From assembly GCA_944383035.1 (NCBI GenBank), contig CALWOE010000015.1, positions 1 to 33,463 on the forward strand: DNA of 33,463 bases. The letters are read 5' to 3'. The notes under the pieces were generated by a model. It did not search any database. It had not been told where the DNA came from and was given only the letters and a program-made list of their open reading frames with translations. The position numbers and the translations under genes are program-made. The DNA comes from an uncultured Clostridia bacterium (GTDB taxonomy: Bacteria; Bacillota; Clostridia; TANB77; CAG-465). Position 1 is the stretch's first letter. Each line of letters begins with the position of its first letter. Positions 1-32,055 of this stretch are shown here, one piece after another.

Positions 1-2418
1 CATTTAGGAAATAGACGTGTAAGATGTGTTGGTGAATTATTACAAAATCAATTTAGAATTGGTCTTGCAAGACTTGAAAGAGTAGTTCGTGAAAGAATGG
101 CTACACAAGATTTAGATGTTGCAACACCACAAACTTTAATTAATATAAAACCAGTAGTTGGAGCATTAAGAGAATTTTTTGGAAGTTCACAATTATCTCA
201 ATTCATGGATCAAATAAATCCACTTGCTGAACTTACACATAAAAGAAGAATATCTGCTTTAGGACCTGGTGGTTTGACAAGAGATAGAGCTGGATTTGAG
301 GTTCGTGATGTTCATTATACACACTATGGTAGATTATGTCCAATAGAGTCTCCAGAAGGACCAAATATCGGACTTATATCTTCACTTTCAACATTTGCTA
401 AAATAAATAGATATGGATTTATTGAAACTCCATATAGAGTTATTGATAAAGCTACTGGAAAAGTTACAGATGATATAATTTATCTTACTGCAGATGAAGA
501 AGATAAATACATAGTAGCACAAGCAAATGAACCTCTAGATGAAGAAAATAGATTTATAAATAAAAGAGTAAAAATAAGACATAAAGATGATATCTTAGAA
601 ATTGATAGAGATAAAGCTGATTTAATGGATGTTTCTCCAAAACAATTAGTTTCAGTTGCAACAGCTATGATACCATTCTTAGAAAATGATGATGCTAAAC
701 GTGCACTTATGGGTTCAAACATGCAACGTCAAGCTGTTCCTCTTATAAGAGCAGAAAGCCCAATTGTTGGAACTGGTATTGAATATAAAGCAGCAGTTGA
801 TTCTGGTATTGTTATACTTGCAAAAAATGATGGTGTTGTATCTTATGTAAGTGCAGATAAAATAATAGTAGATACAAAAACTGGTAAAGATGAATATCAT
901 TTAATAAAATATCAAAGATCTAACCAAGGAACTTGCATAAATCAAAAACCAATAGTATTAAAAGGTGAAAAAGTAAAAAAAGGTGATGTTATTGCTGATG
1001 GTCCATCAACTGATCATGGTGAACTTGCACTTGGTAAAAATATTTTAGTAGGTTTTATGACATGGGAAGGATATAACTTTGAAGATGCAATTTTAATTTC
1101 TGAAGATCTAGTAAAAGATGATGTTTTAACTACAATACATATTGAAGATTATGATTGTGAAGCAAGAGATACTAAACTTGGACCAGAAGAAATCACAAGA
1201 GAAATACCAAATGTTGGTGATGATGCAATAAGTGACTTAGATGAAAATGGTATTATAAGAATTGGTGCAGAAGTAAGACCAGGGGATATATTGGTAGGAA
1301 AAGTAACACCAAAAGGCGAAACAGAACTAACTGCAGAAGAAAAGCTATTAAGAGCGATATTTGGAGAAAAAGCAAGAGAAGTTAGAGATACTTCACTTAG
1401 AGTTCCACATGGTGAAGCGGGTACAGTTGTTGATGTAAAAATATTTACAAGAGAAAATTGTGATGAACTTGCAACAGGAATTCATAAAGTGGTAAGAATA
1501 TATATTGCACAGAAAAGAAAAATATCAGTTGGTGATAAAATGTCTGGACGTCATGGTAATAAAGGTGTTATATCTCGTATTTTACCAAGAGAAGATATGC
1601 CTTATCTACCAGATGGTACACCACTTCAAATAGTACTTAATCCACTTGGACTTCCATCTCGTATGAATGTTGGACAATTACTTGAAACACACCTTGGATA
1701 TGTTGCAAAATCTTTAGGATGGAAAGTTGCAACACCAGTATTTGATGGTGCAAAAGAAAATGATATCGAAGATTTATTTAAAAAACAAGGTTTAAATCCA
1801 ACAGGAAAATTCCCAATTCATGATGGTAGAACAGGGGAATTACTAGATGCAGAAGTTACAGTTGGATACATGTATATGTTGAAACTATATCATATGGTTG
1901 AAGATAAAATACATGCTCGTTCAATTGGGCCATATTCTTTAGTTACACAACAACCATTAGGTGGTAAAGCACAATTTGGTGGTCAAAGATTTGGTGAAAT
2001 GGAAGTTTGGGCTTTAGAAGCTTATGGTGCAGCTTATACATTACAAGAGATATTAACAGTAAAATCTGATGATGTAGATGGTAGATTAAAAACTTATGAG
2101 GCAATAGTTAAAGGTGAAAGTATACCAACTCCTGGAATTCCAGAATCATTTAGAGTATTAACAAAAGAATTACAAAGTTTAGCTTTAGATCTTAGAATGT
2201 ATAGAGAAGATGAGCAATTAGAATTAAAAGAATCTATGGATTATGATGATGATGGAAAAGAGCCAGATTATTCAGAAGATATGAATATGAAAATTACAGA
2301 TTCTGATTTTGCTGGTATGTCATTTGATGATGGAGACACAGAAGATTCTGATATTTCAGCAATAGATATTGATTATGATGATAATAAACAAGAAAATTCA
2401 TATGTTGATGAAGATTAA
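1..2418 (+). CDS. rpoB: RNA polymerase beta subunit, 5'-truncated by window edge
   Basis: This is the C-terminal part of the beta subunit of RNA polymerase; the reading frame is open from base 1 ([14 protein letters not shown]...), so the true start lies outside the window. The rifampicin region is visible at 184-279 (QLSQFMDQ then [11 protein letters not shown] and SALGPGGL), followed by the [14 protein letters not shown] segment and the basic [12 protein letters not shown] segment of the active-centre region. The usual resistance sites (Asp516, His526 and Ser531 in E. coli numbering) are wild type, but the residue at 518 is Ile, where Asn or Thr is usual. The protein ends in an unusually acidic tail of about 50 residues rich in Asp and Glu. 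rpoC follows after 21 bases, so the two are surely cotranscribed. Confidence 0.98.
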
Positions 2419-2439
2419 ATTGTAAGGAGGATTTAGTTT

Positions 2440-5400
2440 ATGCAAGATATTGATAATTTCGATAGATTAAGTATAGGTCTTGCTTCTCCTGAAAAGATCA
2501 GAGAATGGTCAAAAGGTGAGGTTAAAAAACCAGAAACAATAAATTACAGAACTTTAAAACCAGAAAGAGATGGCTTATTTTGTGAGAAAATTTTTGGACC
2601 AACAAAAGACTGGGAATGTTATTGTGGAAAATATAAAAAAGTAAGATATAAAGGCATAATTTGTGATAGATGCGGTGTTGAGGTTACAAAGAAAAAAGTT
2701 AGACGTGAGAGACTTGGACATATTGAACTTGCTTGTCCAGTCTCACATATCTGGTTTTTTAAAGGTATTCCTGGTAGAATGGGATTATTGCTTGATATGT
2801 CACCAAAAGCTTTAGAAAGAGTATTATACTTTGCATCATATGTAGTTTTAGATCCAAAAGATACTGGATTTAAAGCTTGTGATGTATTAAATGAAAAAGA
2901 ATATAGAGAAGCTTTAGAAAAATATGGACCAAACAGTTTAAGAGTTGGAATGGGTGCAGAAGCGATAAGAGAACTACTAAGTAAAATAGATCTACCAAAA
3001 TTAAAAGAACAGTTAAAAAAGGAACTTGAAAAAAATAATGGTGCTAAAAGATCAAAAATCATTAAAAGATTAGAAACAGTAGATGCCTTTCTAAATTCTA
3101 ATAACAAACCTGAATGGATGATTCTTGAAGTGTTACCTGTTATTCCACCTGATTTAAGACCTATGGTTCAATTAGATGGTGGAAGATTTGCAACATCAGA
3201 TTTGAATGATTTATACAGAAGAGTTATTAATCGTAATAATAGACTTAAGAGATTATTAGAACTTGAAGCACCAGATATAATCGTAAGAAATGAAAAAAGA
3301 ATGCTACAAGAAGCAGTAGATGCTTTAATTGACAATGGTAGACGTGGTAGACCAATAACAGGTGCCGGTGGTAGACCATTAAAATCAATATCTGATATGT
3401 TAAAAGGAAAACAAGGAAGATTTAGACAAAACTTACTTGGAAAAAGAGTTGACTATTCTGGACGTTCAGTTATAGTTGTTGGACCATCACTTAAGATTTA
3501 TCAATGTGGTCTTCCAAGAGAAATGGCTTTGGAATTATTCAAACCATTTGTAATGAGAGAACTTGTTAAAAGAGAATTAGCATATAATATAAAGACTGCT
3601 AAAAGAATGGTTGAAAGAACAGATGTAAAAGTATGGGATGTATTGGAAGATGTTATAAAAGATAGACCAGTTATGTTAAACCGTGCTCCAACTTTACATA
3701 GACTTGGAATACAAGCTTTTGAACCAGTTTTAGTAGAAGGAAGAGCTATAAAATTACATCCATTAGTATGTACTGCATTTAATGCTGACTTTGATGGTGA
3801 CCAAATGGCTGTTCACGTACCTTTATCACCAGAAGCAGTAGCAGAAGCTAAATTATTAATGTTAGCATCTAATAATTTGCTTAAATTACAAGATGGTAAA
3901 CCAGTAACAGTTCCATCTATGGATATGATTCTTGGAAGTTTCTATTTGACATTTGAAAAAGATGATGAGCCAGGAACTGGAAAAGTATTCTCTAATGTTG
4001 ATGAAGTAATGATGGCATATGATGAAAAAGTAATTGGTATGCATGCTCCTATTAAAGTTAGGGTAACTAAAGAAATAAATGGTGAAAAAGTTAGTGGCAT
4101 TATTGATGCAACAGCTGGTAGATTAATATTTAATGAATTTATACCTCAAGATATTGGTTATGTTGATAGAACTAAAAAGGAAAACTTACTAAAACTTGAA
4201 ATTGATTTTCCTGTTAAGAAAAAAGAACTTGGTGTAATAATTGATAAATGTATTGCAAAACATGGTATTTCTACAACTGCTGTAGTATTAGATGAAATAA
4301 AAGAAAAAGGATATAAATACTCAACACAAGCAGCCGTTACTGTATCAGTTTCAGATATAGTAATACCTAAGAGTAAGCCGGAAATATTAAAAGAAGCTGA
4401 AGAACAAGCAGAAAAAGTTCTTAAAAATTATAAACGTGGTCTTATATCAAACGAAGAAAGATATAATGAAGTTATAAAAATATGGTCTGCAGCAACAGAT
4501 AAAGTTCAAGCAGAAATAATGAGTAATCCTGATATATTAAATCCAATTCAAATGATGGCTCATACTGGTGCCAGAGGTAATCCAACTCAAATTAGACAGC
4601 TTGCTGGTATGCGTGGACTAATGGCAAATACAATGGGACAAACAATTGAGCTTCCTATTAAATCTAATTTTAAAGAAGGTTTGGATGTTCTTGAATTTTT
4701 CATAGCATCACATGGTGCTAGAAAAGGTCTTGCTGATACAGCATTAAGAACAGCAGATTCTGGTTACTTAACAAGAAGACTTGTTGATGTAAATCAAGAT
4801 GTAATAGTAATGGAAGACGATTGTGGAACTACAAATGGATTTGAGGTTAGTGCTATACTTGAAAGTGGTGAACCAGTAGAGAAATTATCAGAAAGAATTG
4901 AAGGTAGATATTTAGCAGAAGATATAAAAGACAAAGATGGTAATGTAGTATTTCCACATAATACATATATTACTCAAGATATATGTGATAAAATATTATC
5001 ATTTGGTTATGAAAAAGTAAAAATACGTTCAGCATTAACTTGTGAATCTGTAAGAGGAGTTTGTGCAAAATGTTATGGTAAAAACTTAGCTACTGGAGAA
5101 CCAATTACTCCTGGTGAAGCTATAGGTATAATAGCTGCACAATCAATTGGTGAACCAGGTACACAGCTTACAATGAGAACTATTCATAGTGGTGGTGTTG
5201 CAGGTTCAGATATAACTCAAGGTTTACCAAGGGTTGAAGAATTATTTGAGGCTAGAAAACCAAAAGGTGTTGCTATGGTAACTGAAATTGATGGTGTAGT
5301 TTCAATTGGTGAACATGGTAATAATAAAGAAGTTATAATAACAGGTGATGAAAAACACGTTGAAAGATATATAATTCCATATGGCTTGAGAATAACAGTA

Positions 5401-12466: not shown

Positions 12467-14053
12467 ATGGAGGAATTGAAAAAAAGAGTACTTAAAATAT
12501 GGGATTATATAAAAGATAAAAAAGTAACATATATTTCTTTAATAGTTACAACTATTTATTTTATTATATTAGTTTTATTTAATATTAGTGGTAATAAAAT
12601 ATTTACTGGAGTTATACCATATACCTTAATTAGTATAATATTTAATTCATTTTTTTGTGAAAGTGTTTTTAAGAAAAATTCAACTATATATATAACTGAT
12701 ATAATACTTATTTGTTTAAATTCAATATTGTTGAGTATTAATTTATTTGTGGAAAATGTGGATTATTTAACAATATTTGCAATTGGATATATGATAAGTA
12801 TAACTGTCTATACAACATATAATTTGTATAAAAAAAGTAAATTAGAGTTTTATGACTTTGTAACTAGATTTATAAATAAACTTTTTTATATATTTTTAAT
12901 TTTAGCAGTATTTACAATATGTATATTTTTGTTAATGCTTTTATTTATATTTTTAGTAAATGATAATAATTATATATATAATGTTTTAAGTTCATTTTAT
13001 ATAGCTCTATTTGGTTTTTATATAATACCTAATATTATAAAAACATTAGATAATATAAATAAAATTAAGATTAGTAAATTTTTTAAAACATTAATTTTAT
13101 ATATAATTTTACCAGTATCAATAATGGCGATGGTTATAATATATGCACATATAATTATTAGAATTGTATCATCTGAAGTACCATCAAATTTTGTATTGCC
13201 AGTTATTTCATTTTTATTTATTGTAGTATTTGTTATATATAACATATTAAGAAATTATAAGTCAAATAAAGTACTTAATATAATAAGTATAGTTTTACCA
13301 TATGTATTTATTCCATTTATAATTTTACAAATATATACAGCAAATATAAGATATCAAGAATATGGAATAACACCATTAAGGTATGTATCATATATATACA
13401 TAGTATTTGAGATTGTATCAATTTTATTAATGATAATAAAAAAAGGTAAATATTTAGAATACGATTTCTTTGCATTAATAATATTTTTAATTATTTGTAC
13501 AAATCCATTCATTAATGCAGAAAAAGTTGCATATTTAAATCAAAAGCATATAATAGAGAGTAATATAAAAGATAAAGATTTTGATGATTTGTCATCAGAA
13601 GAAAAAAATAAAATTATTAGTGCATATAATTATTTGAAAGTCTTAAATAAAGAAAATGATATAGATATTGATGCAAGTAATTTAGAAAAAATAAAAAATA
13701 CTGATAAAATTGTTTTAACAGATAAGGACTTTTTAAATATAAATGAATATAATATTGTAGATAGTTTAAATGTATCTGGATATTCAAATTTATATTTCGT
13801 AGATACTAGATCTCAAGATACATATGATAGTAATAATATTAAGCTATATAACAATGAAACTGCGATATTGTCTTTAAATATGACTAACATTTTATCTTAT
13901 TTACAACATAACAATAATTATATAAAAGAAAATAATTTAGTAAAAATAAATGATAATAGTGTATTAATAATAGATGATTTTTATTTAAGATATAATCTTG
14001 AAAAAAATGAAATTGAACGTATTTCTATTGACGGATATTTACTTACAAAATAA
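12467..14053 (+). CDS. polytopic membrane protein, DUF4153/DUF4173-like
   Basis: A 528-residue protein with about ten hydrophobic segments over residues 20-385, then a soluble C-terminal part of some 140 residues rich in Asn, Asp and Lys (YLNQKHIIESNIKDKDFDDL onward), probably outside the cell. The motif YGITPLR before a late membrane segment resembles the YGxTxxR motif of DUF4153/DUF4173 proteins, and I assign it there tentatively; no biochemical role is established for that family. The start is ATG 12467, after AAGGAGGAG; an upstream in-frame extension to 12368 would run back through the tuf stop and its terminator. It has its own promoter and stands alone between tuf and acpP. Confidence 0.6.
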   Translation: MEELKKRVLKIWDYIKDKKVTYISLIVTTIYFIILVLFNISGNKIFTGVIPYTLISIIFNSFFCESVFKKNSTIYITDIILICLNSILLSINLFVENVDYLTIFAIGYMISITVYTTYNLYKKSKLEFYDFVTRFINKLFYIFLILAVFTICIFLLMLLFIFLVNDNNYIYNVLSSFYIALFGFYIIPNIIKTLDNINKIKISKFFKTLILYIILPVSIMAMVIIYAHIIIRIVSSEVPSNFVLPVISFLFIVVFVIYNILRNYKSNKVLNIISIVLPYVFIPFIILQIYTANIRYQEYGITPLRYVSYIYIVFEIVSILLMIIKKGKYLEYDFFALIIFLIICTNPFINAEKVAYLNQKHIIESNIKDKDFDDLSSEEKNKIISAYNYLKVLNKENDIDIDASNLEKIKNTDKIVLTDKDFLNINEYNIVDSLNVSGYSNLYFVDTRSQDTYDSNNIKLYNNETAILSLNMTNILSYLQHNNNYIKENNLVKINDNSVLIIDDFYLRYNLEKNEIERISIDGYLLTK

Positions 14054-14110
14054 AAATATATAAAAATGCATTTATTTTCATAAAAATTATATAAATTAAA
14101 TAAAATACTA

Positions 14111-14139
14111 TTGACATTATATAGTAAATATAAGATAAT
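14111..14139 (+). promoter_or_regulatory. acpP promoter
   Basis: TTGACA (14111-14116), 17-base spacer, GATAAT (14134-14139), then a leader of about 33 bases to the acpP start. Confidence 0.8.
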
Positions 14140-14178
14140 AATGATGTGAATTAACAATAATATTAGGGAGGTGCTAAT

Positions 14179-14415
14179 ATGGAGGCTATTTTTGAAAGAG
14201 TAAAAGAAGTAATAGGTGAACAACTTGGTATTGATGATTTAGATTCAATAACTTTAGATACAACATTTATAGATGATTTAGGTGCTGATTCTTTAGATAT
14301 AGTAGAATTAATAATGGCTTTAGAAGAAGAATTTGATATGGAAATTCCAGAAGCTGAAGCAGAAAAGATACAATCAGTTAATGATGTTGTAGAATATATA
14401 ACTAAAAACAGTTAA
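14179..14415 (+). CDS. acpP: acyl carrier protein
   Basis: Carrier of the growing acyl chain in fatty-acid synthesis, with chains held on a 4'-phosphopantetheine arm. The 78-residue acidic protein contains the attachment motif DSLDIVEL; the modified serine is residue 39 in LGADSLD. TTAGGGAGG precedes the ATG. In many Firmicutes acpP follows plsX/fabD/fabG and directly precedes rnc; here it is a monocistronic gene with its own promoter and terminator, and two opposite-strand genes separate it from rnc. Confidence 0.96.
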
Positions 14416-14423
14416 TAAAAAAT

Positions 14424-14461
14424 AATCTTTGTATTATAAAAATAATACAAAGATTTTTTTT
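14424..14461. terminator. bidirectional terminator after acpP
   Basis: A perfect 13-base stem AATCTTTGTATTA/TAATACAAAGATT with loop TAAAAA, with a T run on the right and A-rich sequence on the left, serving acpP and the convergent gene. Confidence 0.9.
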
Positions 14462-14924
14462 AAAATTCTGTGTATTCTCCATTAAAAATACCAAGTTTTA
14501 TAAGTGCAATATCTACAGACATATTGTTGTAAGTAGATGTTTGAAATATAATAGCATCTTCTGTCGTTTCAGTATTTCTTACAGATGGATTTTTTTTAGG
14601 CATTCTATCTATACGTTGCAAATCTTCTAAATTGTTTGCGTTGTAATGTTTTATACAAGTATTAATGATTTTACCTTTTGAATCTGTATAAAATATAATA
14701 TCTTCATCATAATCTAAATATTTTCCATATACTTCTTCATCATAAGTTTCATGTCTTGTTATTTTATATATATGAATATCTTCATTTGGTTTTAAATTTA
14801 TACTATCAGTATAAGAAGAATTCATGTCTTTTGATATAGTGTTTATTTGAAAAAGTGTTATTACTAACCATATAAAAATAGCAATGGAAATAAAAATAAG
14901 AACTAAATTTAGTTTATTTTTCAT
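14460..14924 (-). CDS. membrane-anchored small protein, unknown function
   Basis: The 154-residue product has one hydrophobic helix at about residues 5-26 (LNLVLIFISIAIFIWLVITL) followed by a soluble domain that should face outward. That domain is rich in Tyr, Asp and Thr; no family motif is recognised. The start is ATG 14924 (MKNKLN), because GGAGGTG stands 5 bases upstream; an ATG four codons earlier overlaps that ribosome binding site. The start overlaps the end of the gene before it by 11 bases, so translation is probably coupled. With its partner it forms a two-gene unit inserted between acpP and rnc. Confidence 0.7.
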   Translation of the reverse strand: MKNKLNLVLIFISIAIFIWLVITLFQINTISKDMNSSYTDSINLKPNEDIHIYKITRHETYDEEVYGKYLDYDEDIIFYTDSKGKIINTCIKHYNANNLEDLQRIDRMPKKNPSVRNTETTEDAIIFQTSTYNNMSVDIALIKLGIFNGEYTEF

Positions 14925-15387
14925 AAGCACCTCCATACATTATTTCTGTACAAGTATAATCAGTTATATTATTACTATCGATAACATTTTGTATAGTTTG
15001 TCCATTATATATTTTAGTATGATAACTTAAAATATTTTCATAAGTAAATACATTACTTTTGTTAAATACATCTTCTGTTTTGTAACTTTCATATTTTTGA
15101 TTTAAGTCTTCATCAGAATCAATAGTTTCTTTAACAATAGTTTCGATAATATATTTGTTATTTAATAAATCTACAACAAAATAATATTCAATATTACTAT
15201 TATTTACTTTTAAATTATAAGTATTATAGCTATTATTTCCAGTTATCATATTATTTGCTATCTCACTATTTTGTAAGTTTATTTCAGAATATGTATCTTT
15301 TAAATTATCTTTTATTTTTATAGCAAAAACTAGTAAAAAAACAAGTAAAAATAATATAACTAGTGTAACAATTAGACTTTTTTTCAT
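14914..15387 (-). CDS. membrane-anchored small protein, unknown function
   Basis: This 157-residue product begins with a short basic stretch and a hydrophobic helix (residues 4-24, IVTLVILFLLVFLLVFAI), then a Asn/Tyr-rich exported domain (YNLKVNNSNIEYYFVVDL, a beta-like pattern). It has no lipobox cysteine, so it is a signal-anchored protein, not a lipoprotein. AAGGAGG lies 10 bases before the ATG, behind a strong minus-strand promoter. Its size, topology and operon partnership resemble those of the overlapping downstream gene, so the two products may act together, but I cannot name a family. Confidence 0.7.
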   Translation of the reverse strand: MKKSLIVTLVILFLLVFLLVFAIKIKDNLKDTYSEINLQNSEIANNMITGNNSYNTYNLKVNNSNIEYYFVVDLLNNKYIIETIVKETIDSDEDLNQKYESYKTEDVFNKSNVFTYENILSYHTKIYNGQTIQNVIDSNNITDYTCTEIMYGGAYEK

Positions 15388-15410
15388 ATAAATATAACCT
15401 CCTTTTTTTT

Positions 15411-15439
15411 ATTATACCATATAGTAAAAAAAATGTAAA
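15411..15439 (-). promoter_or_regulatory. promoter of the paired anchored-protein genes
   Basis: Minus strand TTTACA (15434-15439), 17-base spacer, TATAAT (15411-15416). The other part of the 15388-15622 gap holds only the rnc promoter and plain AT-rich sequence. Confidence 0.75.
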
Positions 15440-15576
15440 AATAGTGTAGAAATTGTAAAAAAATAATGCTAAAATACCAAAAATATATTATTATAATAAA
15501 AAATGAACTTAAAATATAAAATATTTTGAAAATTATCCTTTTAATTAACTTTCTTTTTATACAAATATATATAATA

Positions 15577-21057: not shown

Positions 21058-22299
21058 ATGGAACCATTAGCATATAGAATGAAACCAAAAACATTAGATG
21101 ATTTTTTTGGACAAGAAGATATAATAAGTAAAGATAAATTGCTTTATAGATTGATTAAAGCTGATAAGTTAACATCAGCAATATTTTGGGGACCTCCGGG
21201 TTGCGGGAAAACATCTCTTGCCAGAGTAATAGCTAATACTACAAAAAATAAGTTCGTGACTTTAAATGCTACTACAGCGGGAGTTGCAGATATAAAAAAA
21301 GTAGTTGATGAAGCACAAAATATTTTTACTAATCCAACCGGCCGTGTAATTTTATTTATAGACGAAATTCATAGATTTAATAAGTTACAACAAGATGCAC
21401 TTTTACCACATGTTGAAAAAGGAACAGTAATTTTAATTGGTGCTACTACAGAAAATCCATATTTTACAGTAAATAAAGCATTAATTTCTAGATCTACAGT
21501 ATTTAAGTTTAATCCATTAGAAACAAAAGATATAAAAAATATTCTACATAACTGTTTAAATGATAAAGAAAATGGACTTGGTAACTATGCTTTAGATGTT
21601 AAAGAAGATGCAATTGATTTTTTAGCGCAAAATGCAAATGGTGATGTAAGAACAGTACTTAATGCTTTAGAACTTGCAGTACTTACTACAGAAATGAATT
21701 CGGATGGTAAGATATTAATTGATAAAGAAGTAATTAGAAACTGTATTCAACAAAAAAAGACTATTTATGATAAATCAGACGATTCACATTATGATATAAT
21801 ATCTGCATTTATAAAATCAATGCGAGGAAGTGATCCTGATGCAACGCTTCATTATTTGGCTAGAATGATTGAAGGTGGAGAAGATCCGATGTTTATAGCT
21901 AGAAGAATAGTAATACAAGCGTCAGAAGATGTAGGTCTTGCAAATAATCAAGCGCTAGTTGTAGCGGTAAGTGCTATGAATGCAGTTCATCAAATAGGTA
22001 TGCCAGAAGCAAGAATAATATTAGCTCATGCAGCATTAGTTGTTGCACTAAGTAGAAAATCAAATAGTGCATATATGGGAATAAATAGTGCAATAGAAGA
22101 TGTTAAAAACATTGATATTGGTGAAGTACCAATGCATCTTAAAAATGCTCCAATAGAAGCTATGCAAGATTATGGATATTCTGTAGGATATAAGTATCCA
22201 CATAATTTTGAGGGTGGATATGTAGAACAACAATATATGCCTGATAAATTAATTGGAAAAAAATATTTTTTTCCTAAAGATTGGGAGAAAAAATTATGA
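21058..22299 (+). CDS. rarA: replication-associated recombination ATPase RarA (MgsA)
   Basis: AAA+ ATPase of the clamp-loader clade, acting at stalled replication forks with SSB and DNA. The 413-residue protein starts EPLAYRMKPKTLDDFFGQ, with Walker A GPPGCGKT at residues 45-52, Walker B ILFIDEIHRF (Asp102, Glu103), sensor 1 GATTENP and the arginine-finger/sensor region ALISRSTVFKF. The C-terminal tetramerisation domain is complete (GSDPDATLHYLARMIEGGEDP and YKYPHNFEGGYVEQQY). AAAGGAG precedes the ATG. It overlaps the next gene by 4 bases (ATGA). Confidence 0.96.
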   Translation: MEPLAYRMKPKTLDDFFGQEDIISKDKLLYRLIKADKLTSAIFWGPPGCGKTSLARVIANTTKNKFVTLNATTAGVADIKKVVDEAQNIFTNPTGRVILFIDEIHRFNKLQQDALLPHVEKGTVILIGATTENPYFTVNKALISRSTVFKFNPLETKDIKNILHNCLNDKENGLGNYALDVKEDAIDFLAQNANGDVRTVLNALELAVLTTEMNSDGKILIDKEVIRNCIQQKKTIYDKSDDSHYDIISAFIKSMRGSDPDATLHYLARMIEGGEDPMFIARRIVIQASEDVGLANNQALVVAVSAMNAVHQIGMPEARIILAHAALVVALSRKSNSAYMGINSAIEDVKNIDIGEVPMHLKNAPIEAMQDYGYSVGYKYPHNFEGGYVEQQYMPDKLIGKKYFFPKDWEKKL

Positions 22300-28590: not shown

Positions 28591-29619
28591 TTATATTTCA
28601 TTAGTTTCGCCACGCATTATTTTAAATAAATTTTCACCATATTCATTTATCATTTCTAAGAATTCATCGCAAAGTTCAGGATCAAATTGAGTACCTCTAT
28701 TATTTTTAAGTTCAGATATTGCGTATTCTATAGATGTTTCGTTTTTATATGGTCTTCTTGAAGTTATTGCATCAAAAGAATCACATAAAGCAAGAACTCT
28801 TGCAAGATAAGGAATGTTTTCTCCTTTTAAATGATTTGGATAACCTTTACCATCATATCTTTCATGATGATGTAACATTATAGGTATTATATCATCAAAT
28901 ATATGCGAGATACTAAATATATTAGCTCCTATTATTGGATGTAATTTTATTGTATCATATTCATCTTGTGTTAATTTTCCTTCTTTTAATAAGATATAAT
29001 CAGGAATTCCAATTTTTCCTATATCATGGAACACACCAGCCATTTCTATATTTTTTATTTCTTTTTGATTTAAACCTATTCTAGTTCCAAAAAATACTGC
29101 AAGTCTTGATACACGTCTTGAATGTTCTTCTGTATAGTGATCTTTTGCTCCAACTGTATTTAGTAATATTTTTGCAAAGTCAATTAAATATTGTTCTAAT
29201 TTTATATTCATATTTTTTATTTTGTTTAATTGATTTAAATAACTTATACCACTTTGAATTTGTAATATTAATTGATCAAATCTACTACTTTTTTCAAAAT
29301 ATGCTTGTATATCTAATGTTTGCATAGTTTCAATGGATGGAGCTAGATCTTTATGCATTGACATTAAAATTATATATATTTCTTTATTAAATTCTCTTAC
29401 TAATTCTATTATCCTATCACCATTTACAGGAGACATTAAATAATTTACTATTAATATATCATATGTGTTGGCTTTTAGTTCTTCAATCGCAGCGACTGGA
29501 TCCGTAAATGTTTTTACTTGATGTCCATATTTGGATAATACTACAGATAATATATCCATCATGTTTACATCATCATCTATTATAAGTATTTTTGCATTAA
29601 TTATTTTGTTATTTTCCAT
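28591..29619 (-). CDS. receiver-HD-GYP protein, probable cyclic-di-GMP phosphodiesterase
   Basis: A 342-residue two-domain protein. Residues 8-130 form a response-regulator receiver (KILIIDDD, switch Ser in ILMSMHKD, Lys in YFEKSS), but the phospho-acceptor position is Asn59 (ILIVNYLMSPVNG) where Asp is expected. Residues 160-335 form an HD-GYP domain with HSRRVSRLA, HDIGKIGIPDYIL, the HHHERYDGKGYP motif and DSFDAITSRRPYK; the metal-binding and GYP residues are all present, so cyclic-di-GMP hydrolysis is likely. The start is ATG 29619 with AGAGGTG upstream. No histidine kinase is adjacent. It is divergent from an AT-rich gene cluster. Confidence 0.92.
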   Translation of the reverse strand: MENNKIINAKILIIDDDVNMMDILSVVLSKYGHQVKTFTDPVAAIEELKANTYDILIVNYLMSPVNGDRIIELVREFNKEIYIILMSMHKDLAPSIETMQTLDIQAYFEKSSRFDQLILQIQSGISYLNQLNKIKNMNIKLEQYLIDFAKILLNTVGAKDHYTEEHSRRVSRLAVFFGTRIGLNQKEIKNIEMAGVFHDIGKIGIPDYILLKEGKLTQDEYDTIKLHPIIGANIFSISHIFDDIIPIMLHHHERYDGKGYPNHLKGENIPYLARVLALCDSFDAITSRRPYKNETSIEYAISELKNNRGTQFDPELCDEFLEMINEYGENLFKIMRGETNEI

Positions 29620-29670: not shown

Positions 29671-29726
29671 TATGATATTTTAGGGATTTTCATATGTTTC
29701 GTGTCGTTTTTTGCGATCGATTTTTC

Positions 29727-29755
29727 TTGACTTTATATAAAAATGATGTTAATAT
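29727..29755 (+). promoter_or_regulatory. possible promoter of the AT-rich cluster
   Basis: TTGACT (29727-29732), 17-base spacer, TAATAT (29750-29755). The -35 is good and the -10 is weak (4/6). A CG-rich block at 29698-29721 lies just upstream. Confidence 0.45.
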
Positions 29756-29779
29756 AAAAATGTAGGTGGTGATGTATAT

Positions 29780-30355
29780 GTGTATGTATTAGTTTTTTTA
29801 CTTTCAATTTTTTTATCGTATAATTTATTATTATTGCTTTTTTCAAATAAATTAAATCAAAATCTTATTTTTAATATTATAAATGAATATTTTTATCTAT
29901 TATTATTTTTAGTAGTTCTTTTGATAATTTCCAAAAACATTATATTAACTATTCTATTTTTCATTGTTATTTTTATTTTTCCAAAACTTTTAAAATTTTT
30001 ATTAAAATTAATTATTAACATATGGTTGTTATGCTATTATGCAAAGATAACCTCTAAATTATATGATGTCATAATATTAGATAATGACATAAGTGTAGTT
30101 AATAAATATTCTAATAACAATTTACTCTATAAAATACAAAACCATTTTAAAGATAAACTAATATATAATAATTTATATATTTTAAATTATAACTTAATGT
30201 TAGATAAGTTATTTAATAAAAAAATAGAAAAAAATTACGTTTATAATTTAAACAGATATTATAAAAGACATTTAATAAAGTATTTGATATATTTTTTATG
30301 CATAATTTTCTTTGTTCTAATTTTCATAAATTTAATATTTATTTTTTGGAGGTAA
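29780..30355 (+). CDS. small multi-pass membrane protein, unknown function
   Basis: The 191-residue product has hydrophobic segments at about residues 2-20, 36-60 and 56-82 (partly merged) and a last one at about 165-189, around a polar, Asn/Lys/Tyr-rich stretch of some 80 residues. Two N-terminal helices, a helical soluble part and a final helix recall a reduced TadB/TadC-type protein, but no diagnostic motif is seen and I do not assign it. The start is GTG 29780 behind AGGTGGTGA; out-of-frame ATG codons at 29772 and 29778 lead only to a very short reading frame. Base composition is extreme (7 G/C in 60 at 30181-30240). Confidence 0.65.
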   Translation: MYVLVFLLSIFLSYNLLLLLFSNKLNQNLIFNIINEYFYLLLFLVVLLIISKNIILTILFFIVIFIFPKLLKFLLKLIINIWLLCYYAKITSKLYDVIILDNDISVVNKYSNNNLLYKIQNHFKDKLIYNNLYILNYNLMLDKLFNKKIEKNYVYNLNRYYKRHLIKYLIYFLCIIFFVLIFINLIFIFWR

Positions 30356-30356
30356 A

Positions 30357-30947
30357 ATGAAAAAGACATATAAACTTTTTTATTTAAATAAATTAAAAAG
30401 AAAAATTATCTTTTTAATTATACTTATTCTTTTAAATTACATATTTTTTTATTTATATAATTTGTTTGCAATAACAAATAGGTATCAAAAAGTATATATA
30501 TTAAATCAAGATATTAAAGAAGGACAAAATATAAAAGATGAATATTTTGATATTGAGTATGTAAAAAATAATAACTTTCATTTTAATAATAAAAATGAAG
30601 AATATGTTTTTAAATGTGATTTAAAAAAAGGTCAAATTTTAAATGATACTTTAGTTATAAATAAAGAAAATTATAAAGTGAAAAAAGAATATATTAATAT
30701 CAAGTTAAATGAAAATTTAAATTATAATATTAAAAAAGGTGATATAGTTAATATTTATTATACTAGTAAAGATAAAAGCAAGTTAATACTTGAAAATATT
30801 GAAATAATAAATTCATATAATAAAGAGGGAATTGAAAGTAATAAAAATATAACACAGATTTTAATAGGTATAAAAAGTGATGATGTAAGTATTATAAATT
30901 CTTTAAAAGAAGGGGGGCTATTTGATATATCGATAGTAAAAAAATAA
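30357..30947 (+). CDS. SAF-domain protein, CpaB/RcpC-like
   Basis: The 196-residue protein has a basic N-terminus, one membrane anchor (about residues 17-38), then a SAF domain (YILNQDIKEGQNIKDEYFDI, followed by DLKKGQILNDTLVI). A second all-beta part (LNYNIKKGDIVNIYYTS) and a C-terminal IIGIKSDDVSIINSL-like stretch complete the layout of CpaB/RcpC, which in Tad pilus systems sits at the cell envelope. It is a shorter version than typical CpaB. GGAGG lies in the last codons of the upstream gene, and the ATG follows its stop by one base, so the two are coupled. No CpaF ATPase or pilin gene is in the window. Confidence 0.72.
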   Translation: MKKTYKLFYLNKLKRKIIFLIILILLNYIFFYLYNLFAITNRYQKVYILNQDIKEGQNIKDEYFDIEYVKNNNFHFNNKNEEYVFKCDLKKGQILNDTLVINKENYKVKKEYINIKLNENLNYNIKKGDIVNIYYTSKDKSKLILENIEIINSYNKEGIESNKNITQILIGIKSDDVSIINSLKEGGLFDISIVKK

Positions 30948-31036
30948 AAGTATTATTAATATATGATAGCTATGAGAATAAAAAATTAGCTTTAAAACTT
31001 AATTTATATAATATAATAAAAAAGGAAAATATTATT

Positions 31037-31342
31037 ATGGATTTATATTATAAAGAAAATAAATATGATTTATATGTCATAATTTCAAATTCTATAAGTT
31101 TTGTAAAAGCAGTAGTAAGACATATAAATAAAATGAATAACTTAAAAAATAAAATTAGGAAAAAAGAAATGTTTAATAATAAGAAAAATAAAAGGTATGT
31201 TATACTTACAAATAATTATAATTCAGAATATATTATAAATCTAATAAAAATTACAGAAAATATTTTTTATTCAAAAAATAGTTTAGAAGATATATTGTAT
31301 AAAATTAAGAAAAGCTATAAAAAAGTACTATTACTTAATTAA
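31037..31342 (+). CDS. receiver-like protein, start uncertain (frame open from 30926)
   Basis: The coordinates give the first ATG (101 residues, AAAGGA 10 bases upstream), but the frame is open back to 30926 with no ATG, GTG or TTG, and the extra residues (KIKVLLIYDSYENKKLALKL) look like strand 1 and helix 1 of a receiver fold. The rest fits strands 3 to 5 (YDLYVIISNS, RYVILTNN, NIFYSKNSLEDILYKI, with a Lys where receivers keep theirs). The acidic phospho-acceptor is absent. This resembles the atypical receiver at the N-terminus of TadZ/CpaE, which fits the CpaB-like gene before it, without the ATPase domain. The true start may be a rare codon (ATC 30929 or ATA 30944) or a -1 shift from the SAF gene. 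Confidence 0.55.
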   Translation: MDLYYKENKYDLYVIISNSISFVKAVVRHINKMNNLKNKIRKKEMFNNKKNKRYVILTNNYNSEYIINLIKITENIFYSKNSLEDILYKIKKSYKKVLLLN

Positions 31343-31415: not shown

Positions 31416-31441
31416 AAAAAAGATCCAACTTAAGTTGGACC
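31416..31441 (-). terminator. terminator of the MecA-like gene
   Basis: Read on the minus strand, GGTCCAAC and GTTGGATC (one G-U pair) form a stem with loop TTAA followed by TTTTTT. The gene's stop codon touches the first base of the stem. The 31343-31440 gap otherwise holds a DnaA-box-like 9-mer. Confidence 0.85.
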
Positions 31442-32055
31442 TAAATATTAATTAATTTTTGTAAAGCGTTATTTTTAATAATTAATTTACTTTTTTCTTT
31501 TATAGAAACTTCATATATATCATATGAATAATATGTATTACAAAATTCAGATAATATAACGTAAGTCTTTAAAAACTTTTTGTTTTTAATAGAATTTTTT
31601 GTAAATATTAAAAAATATGTATCATTATATTTATATAAACTATTTCTACCAAAATATAAATTCTCTTTTTTAGCTATTGTACATAAATCTAAAATGTCAT
31701 CTATACTATTAAATGAAAATACATTACTATCTACTTTATATCTTGTAATTTTATTTGTTTTTGTGTTTGATTTGTTTTCTCTTTTTGTATATTTTTTTAA
31801 TTCTGGAAAATCATTAATTTTTGTTATTGTAACGATAAATAAATTATTGTTATCAGAACAAGCTTCAATTAAAAGTTGAGAATCATCAACAAAAAATTCA
31901 CTGTCTAAATCTGTTTCTTCTATTAAATCTGTAAATAAATCTCTTGCAAGTGAAGAATTATTTGTAATATCTTTTAAAGATATATCTCTTTTCTCTAATT
32001 CTTCAAAAGTAAGAGTAATCTTAATCTTGTTTTCATTTATAAATTCTACTTTCAT
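31441..32055 (-). CDS. MecA-family adaptor protein
   Basis: MecA proteins hand substrates to the ClpC ATPase for degradation. The 204-residue protein has the N-terminal substrate-binding pattern (KIKITLTFEELEKRDISLKD, then ARDLFTDLIEET and DDSQLLIEA with VTITKI), a polar Lys/Asn linker (about residues 88-105), and a C-terminal ClpC-binding-like domain (FSFNSIDDILDLCTIA, YFLIFTKN, YVILSEFC). Sequence divergence from B. subtilis MecA is large but length and order of parts agree. TAGGAGG precedes the ATG, behind a strong promoter. It is divergent from rpsF. Confidence 0.82.
   Translation of the reverse strand: MKVEFINENKIKITLTFEELEKRDISLKDITNNSSLARDLFTDLIEETDLDSEFFVDDSQLLIEACSDNNNLFIVTITKINDFPELKKYTKRENKSNTKTNKITRYKVDSNVFSFNSIDDILDLCTIAKKENLYFGRNSLYKYNDTYFLIFTKNSIKNKKFLKTYVILSEFCNTYYSYDIYEVSIKEKSKLIIKNNALQKLINI

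Follow-up and report, generated by a model that had tools for sequence, protein, structure and literature searches.

Apparent repeated reduction of a Tad-like pilus locus to the same remnant in a family of uncultured Clostridia

The window analysed here is a whole stretch of 33,463 nucleotides that makes up the entire contig 15 of the 1.28-Mb, 99% complete genome of an uncultured Clostridia bacterium. Three genes, here termed A, B and C, lie in it between a divergent REC-HD-GYP gene and mecA (Table 1). The original prediction drew attention to this trio for its extreme AT-richness; its three frames are present and intact, and its base counts are exact, with 7 G/C in 60 bases at 30181, 30241 and 30421 against 19 at 21601. 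Local G+C content is 15-17% in the trio compared to about 22-33% across most of the window, and B and C have the lowest values among the compared genes of the window genome. The trio is not alone in its low G+C content: seven or fewer G/C occur in 25 of the 557 sixty-base tiles of the window. Chance produced no open frame longer than 115 codons when 2000 first-order Markov sequences were simulated with this base composition, compared to 191 and 196 in A and B, so these open frames exceed chance expectation at such a composition. A second very AT-rich stretch occurs between tuf and rnc (window 12541-15541), where a large membrane protein (561-aa frame) is encoded, with two small proteins on the opposite strand.

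Table 1. Features of the trio locus, of the corresponding operon in relatives and of the second locus.
Feature	Position	Strand	Basis or remark
REC-HD-GYP gene, flank; locus anchor, outside the module	28591..29619	-	Pfam HD_5 and Response_reg; anchor survey
0A-box-like regulatory element TGTCGTTTTTTGCGATCGA, common to the operon promoter of relatives	29702..29720	+	comparison with relatives
Promoter: -35 TTGACT (29727-29732), 17-bp spacer, -10 TAATAT (29750-29755)	29727..29755	+	sequence
Shine-Dalgarno AGGTGG; in relatives AGGAGGTGAT	29764..29769	+	comparison with relatives
A, TadC remnant, 191-aa multi-pass membrane protein, GTG start	29780..30355	+	N-terminal match to TadC
B, CpaB/RcpC homologue, 196 aa, one TM helix, SAF domain, C-terminal beta domain	30357..30947	+	Pfam matches of relatives, structure match
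C, stand-alone receiver-fold protein (pseudo-receiver)	30944..31342	+	alignment of 22 homologues, structure model
mecA, flank; anchor on the other side of the locus	31441..32055	-	Pfam MecA 5e-35; anchor survey
TadC-like protein, about 265-299 aa	relatives' operon, first gene		
Flp1-like pilin	relatives' operon, second gene		
B (CpaB), then C (pseudo-receiver)	relatives' operon, third and fourth genes		
D, about 190 aa	relatives' operon, fifth gene		missing in a few genomes
E, about 530 aa	relatives' operon, sixth gene		Athe_2463 domain
Two small single-TM proteins, minor-pilin-like	relatives' operon, last two genes		
Split VirB4-type ATPase, TadZ and m245 cluster	L195 (G000:C33) 98-4404; L097 2260-8556		kept nearly family-wide

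Sequence comparison identifies A as the N-terminal piece of a TadC protein that has lost its T2SSF part. In a gapless comparison with the N-termini of nine full TadC proteins, the N-terminus of A scores at z 5.8, a value matched by 0 of 1000 shuffles, and the segment KNIILTILFFIVIFIFPKLLKFLLK matches TadC of a relative (G021) at E 0.003. Over its whole length, A has an HMM score no better than shuffles, and no T2SSF domain is detectable in it with Pfam or HMM searches.

B had been described as a CpaB-like SAF protein, which is borne out by its predicted structure (pLDDT 89.7). The best PDB match is RcpC of P. aeruginosa (9gzr; E 4.5e-7, Z 8.4) and spans both outer domains; its rmsd is high, probably due to rotation of the domains against each other. 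Relatives of B pass the Pfam cut-offs for SAF (PF08666) and RcpC (PF16976), while window B, to which they are 20-36% identical, passes neither. RcpC, which forms a dodecameric ring in P. aeruginosa (PMC12307814), shares with B a single TM helix, an SAF-type domain and a second beta domain; window B is shorter.

The frame of C is open from 30926 and, in an alignment of 22 homologues, homology begins at about 30944, which rules out the ATG at 31037 as its start. Translation would begin at a non-standard codon, probably ATA at 30944, within an ATAA overlap with the stop codon of B, or else ATC at 30929. A programmed -1 frameshift that fuses B and C at the A7 run (30938-30944) is a less simple explanation because C has its own start and ribosome-binding site in most relatives. 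The structure model (pLDDT 83.6) has a (beta-alpha)5 receiver fold that matches receiver domains at Z 12-14. C resembles stand-alone receivers and the N-terminal receiver of TadZ in this fold and differs from both in that no conserved phospho-acceptor aspartate column is visible in the 22-homologue alignment. The expected likeness to the TadZ/CpaE N-terminus holds for the fold; kinship with the TadZ receiver in particular would be tentative, as the C profile matches this receiver of the same genomes over 18 columns at 32% probability (hhalign), a weak match. C has no Pfam match, including to the PF21194-type TadZ receiver, and profile comparison with m245, a protein of the second locus described below, gave none either.

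The pilus ATPase and platform genes are missing genome-wide. Searches of the entire window genome found only PilB and PilT above the PF00437 cut-off and only PilC above that of PF00482, all of type IVa, so that there is no CpaF/TadA extension ATPase and no complete TadB or TadC platform protein. The E protein was not found in a whole-genome search, and reading of the trio locus revealed no Flp-type pilin or minor pilins there.

Gene neighbourhoods were surveyed in 36 genomes of the family. Far from being confined to the window, the trio genes are conserved in relatives, with B-like matches in 21 of the 36 genomes. Where the locus is complete, an eight-gene Tad-like operon lies between the REC-HD-GYP gene and mecA; its SAF, RcpC and Athe_2463 matches exceed curated cut-offs, and those of its T2SSF/UpsF-like TadC and Flp1-like pilin fall below them. 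Anchor searches with mecA and HD-GYP define three states: full (15 genomes), reduced to a TadC remnant, B and C (six genomes: G000, which is that of the window, G004, G007, G019, G021 and G023) and empty, with about 0.4 kb separating the anchors (13 genomes). In genera g2 and g5, and also in the sister family, the operon is not next to HD-GYP. One further genome (G003) has a full second locus with CpaF, and neither HD-GYP nor mecA was found in it. From these comparisons, the trio is read as a reduced Tad locus and not a transferred island. The proposal of a degraded pilus locus was therefore right as to origin, because the same site in relatives holds the full operon from which the missing genes were deleted. 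A regulatory link with the divergent HD-GYP gene is not supported; HD-GYP adjoins mecA in 13 genomes that lack the trio and the operon occurs elsewhere without HD-GYP, so the association looks positional only and HD-GYP is unsupported as a functional partner.

The N-terminal helix of TadC is retained in 6/6 reduced genomes, and in four of them TadC consists of just this first helix, a peptide of 31-38 aa upstream of B (L037, L041, L045 and L101) that retains the promoter and ribosome-binding site of the operon. The promoter element, which has the consensus TGTCGnnnnTTGCGAYCGA, is common to many full operons and to the reduced G000, G004, G007 and G019, with a diverged copy in G023; the -35 and -10 regions were aligned with those of relatives by eye. 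Allowing up to two mismatches, it occurs only three times in the 1.28-Mb window genome, compared to 0 for the reversed control. One of the other copies lies upstream of a Spo0E-like gene adjoining the second locus and the third precedes a sortase and a thioester/SpaA adhesin (L196, G000:C46, 318-2480). The element resembles the 0A-box consensus, and Spo0A is encoded in the window genome. A riboswitch upstream of the operon was dropped from consideration because there is no Rfam match to any known RNA.

The second locus in relatives has the order m190 - m570 - TadZ - CpaF - TadB - m245. The m570 protein is VirB4/TraC-like (NF045975, 1.7e-53; NF045971, 2.3e-42, both far below the family cut-offs) and has a close relative in 35/36 genomes, and m190 of G019 matches the N-terminal part of VirB4; by homology, m190 and m570 are two parts of a split VirB4-type ATPase. 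Contig C33 of the window genome retains m190, m570, a 397-aa TadZ (family HMM E 2.6e-95) and m245, and the CpaF-TadB slot between TadZ and m245 is empty. A survey with PF00437 detected an ATPase of CpaF size in every full genome but G033 (14 of 15) and also in G003, and in no reduced or empty genome. CpaF and TadB are exactly missing in 19/19 reduced or empty genomes, while the VirB4-TadZ-m245 core stays and is complete in almost all of them, even where no Tad pilus gene is left; in G001 the fetched region meets a contig end before TadZ and in G013 m190 is uncalled. TadZ diverges faster after CpaF loss. Both loci are present in the sister family, with CpaF and TadB where the contig reaches, which makes the two-locus system ancestral. 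When 84,980 species were scanned at pattern-search sensitivity, only 19 m245 loci came up, all in uncultured Clostridia MAGs, and the sister family has a weakly m245-like protein. Near the VirB4-TadZ locus the family also conserves three small Asn-rich proteins, encoded beside the Spo0E-like gene (L195 4378-5547). Two relatives (L085, G032:C14; L095, G029:C19) have an additional Tad-like locus, distinct from the others, that includes a CpaF and platform proteins of its own.

Relatives with both loci share with the Tad (type IVc, Tfpc) pili of monoderms and diderms a TadC-/TadB-type platform, CpaF, TadZ, a Flp1-like pilin and CpaB/RcpC, to which their full form adds the split VirB4-type ATPase and m245. 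The window genome shares TadZ and the RcpC-like fold of B with these pili and differs from them in having no CpaF, TadB or complete TadC, nor pilin or minor pilins at the locus. The match of m570 to conjugation ATPases of the VirB4/TraC type (CD1110 and Mbov_0397 families) is accompanied by differences: the protein is here split in two, its scores are low against those families, and its neighbours are TadZ, CpaF and TadB instead of other conjugation genes. Tad systems have been reported in Clostridia by a survey (PMC6668835), and RcpC is among the parts missing in monoderm Tad systems compared in a review (PMC6916266), from which the full form described here differs in having an RcpC homologue. 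A limited literature search found no description of a VirB4-linked Tad locus or of a convergent A-B-C remnant.

The number of reductions was assessed with a tree of 18 markers and 19 taxa and with AU tests based on full constrained searches. In the best tree, reduced genomes are interspersed with full ones; its backbone has weak support, as has that of a 12-marker tree, and the positions of G000 and G021 differ between the 18-marker FastTree and IQ-TREE results. The data reject one clade for every reduced and every empty genome (delta logL 81, AU p=2e-6) and do not reject a two-event constraint (AU p=0.07); the same remnant was thus reached by convergence in two or more lineages. On this phylogenetic evidence, two or more independent rounds of deletion removed the motor, pilins and most other Tad parts and spared the same leftovers. 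Signs of decay such as frameshifts or relaxed selection, which the original prediction had named, are not seen in the retained genes: frames are intact and pN is smaller than pS in every pair, with ratios that are rough because dS is near saturation. Identities of reduced pairs are in or near the range of full pairs (reduced pair G004-G007, 0.42 for both B and C; full pair G012-G017, 0.47 for B and 0.44 for C), and B and C thus evolve no faster in reduced genomes than alongside the full gene set.

Retention of the same leftovers each time suggests a function that persists in the absence of a pilus. We lean towards the view that selection maintains A, B and C as a pilus-less module, which probably cooperates with the VirB4-TadZ-m245 core; TadZ, the VirB4-type ATPase and m245 are the likely partner because these parts of the ancestral two-locus system are common to all reduced genomes. 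Several observations count against this view. The trio and the core lie at separate loci, and the empty clade has the core without B and C, which makes B and C dispensable in some lineages. B identities to the window protein are low with dS near saturation, the promoter element is degenerate in G021, the start of window C is probably weak, and faster TadZ divergence is what partial loss of its role would produce. The main rival view is slow decay, in which the trio would mark a transition between the full operon and complete loss, with B and C surviving longest, by chance or under weak residual selection. The series of full, reduced and empty loci, with the empty clade as its end point, fits such a course, as do shrinkage of TadC in all six reduced genomes, the lack of a standard start in window C and the G+C content of B and C, the lowest among the compared genes of the window genome. 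Frames of 196 and about 133 codons are nevertheless intact at roughly 15% GC, B and C remain intact in lineages separated by near-saturated dS, the same genes were retained in at least two independent reductions, the promoter element is retained, and B and C show no acceleration; we therefore regard slow decay as rather unlikely.

It is less probable again that B and C were recruited to a machine unrelated to the VirB4-TadZ-m245 core, for example a type IVa pilus, a sortase-linked surface system or a cell-wall process. The window genome has a type IVa pilus locus (PilB/PilT/PilC, contig 3) and its sortase and adhesin pair lies behind the promoter element of the trio, but G019 and G023 retain B and C with no PF00437 ATPase found there, so this pilus cannot be the general partner; lacking a T2SSE ATPase match in those two genomes, it was ruled out as the partner of B and C. 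Recent transfer of an AT-rich island, also raised in the original prediction, deserves almost no credence. The G+C contrast with most of the window would fit a transfer, but trio genes are low in G+C relative to the HD-GYP gene in every compared genome, and synteny refutes the idea: the locus keeps the same anchors and position in most of the family, has its full form in 15 relatives, occurs as an operon in the sister family and is ancestral to the order.

On the favoured view, A, B and C would make up a sub-complex that is anchored in the membrane and needs no filament to function. B would assemble its SAF/beta domains into a ring like that of RcpC on the outer side of the membrane, where its own TM helix and the helix that A has from TadC would hold it in place. 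C would dock at the cytoplasmic face and act, independently of phosphorylation, as an adaptor to TadZ and to the VirB4-type ATPase; these two could provide nucleotide-driven positioning or transport across the envelope. Spo0A would control expression through predicted binding to the 0A-box-like promoter. A bolder possibility, to which we give less weight, is that filament-less envelope machines arose repeatedly from Tad pili that lost their motor, pilins and adhesin. Such a machine would have retained the CpaB ring, an adaptor with a receiver fold and a membrane helix from TadC, and would now be run by the split VirB4-type ATPase with TadZ and m245. It would correspond to the distinct envelope system that the original prediction named as an option. 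The same few parts have outlasted two or more independent reductions, a natural experiment that asks which Tad components do work other than filament making. It makes roles of TadZ and of CpaB/RcpC, described as a filament conduit in a diderm, testable without pilin or motor, and it connects a Tad system with a VirB4-type ATPase, a kind of enzyme familiar from conjugation.

TadC and C seem often to start at AUU or AUA. TadC of many relatives has no ATG, GTG or TTG at the homologous N-terminus, and most such genes have an extended Shine-Dalgarno sequence, AGGAGGTGA, 7-8 nt upstream of ATT or ATA. The next standard start is 37-117 codons off in G011, G012 and G032; in G017 and G018 the nearest is 128 and 89 codons off, respectively, and the start codon is less clear. 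A blind scan with the Shine-Dalgarno motif for general AUA-start usage gave too noisy a signal and was abandoned. In S. aureus, such starts with an extended Shine-Dalgarno sequence supported expression at about 10% of the AUG level in poor medium (PMC13009471). Gene callers would miss the N-termini of TadC and C proteins that start at ATT or ATA. C begins at ATT or ATA in G017, G018, G028 and G004, as it probably does in the window, and loci with such starts (L040, L042, L039, L049, L047, L038, L046 and window 30944) occur in several genera.
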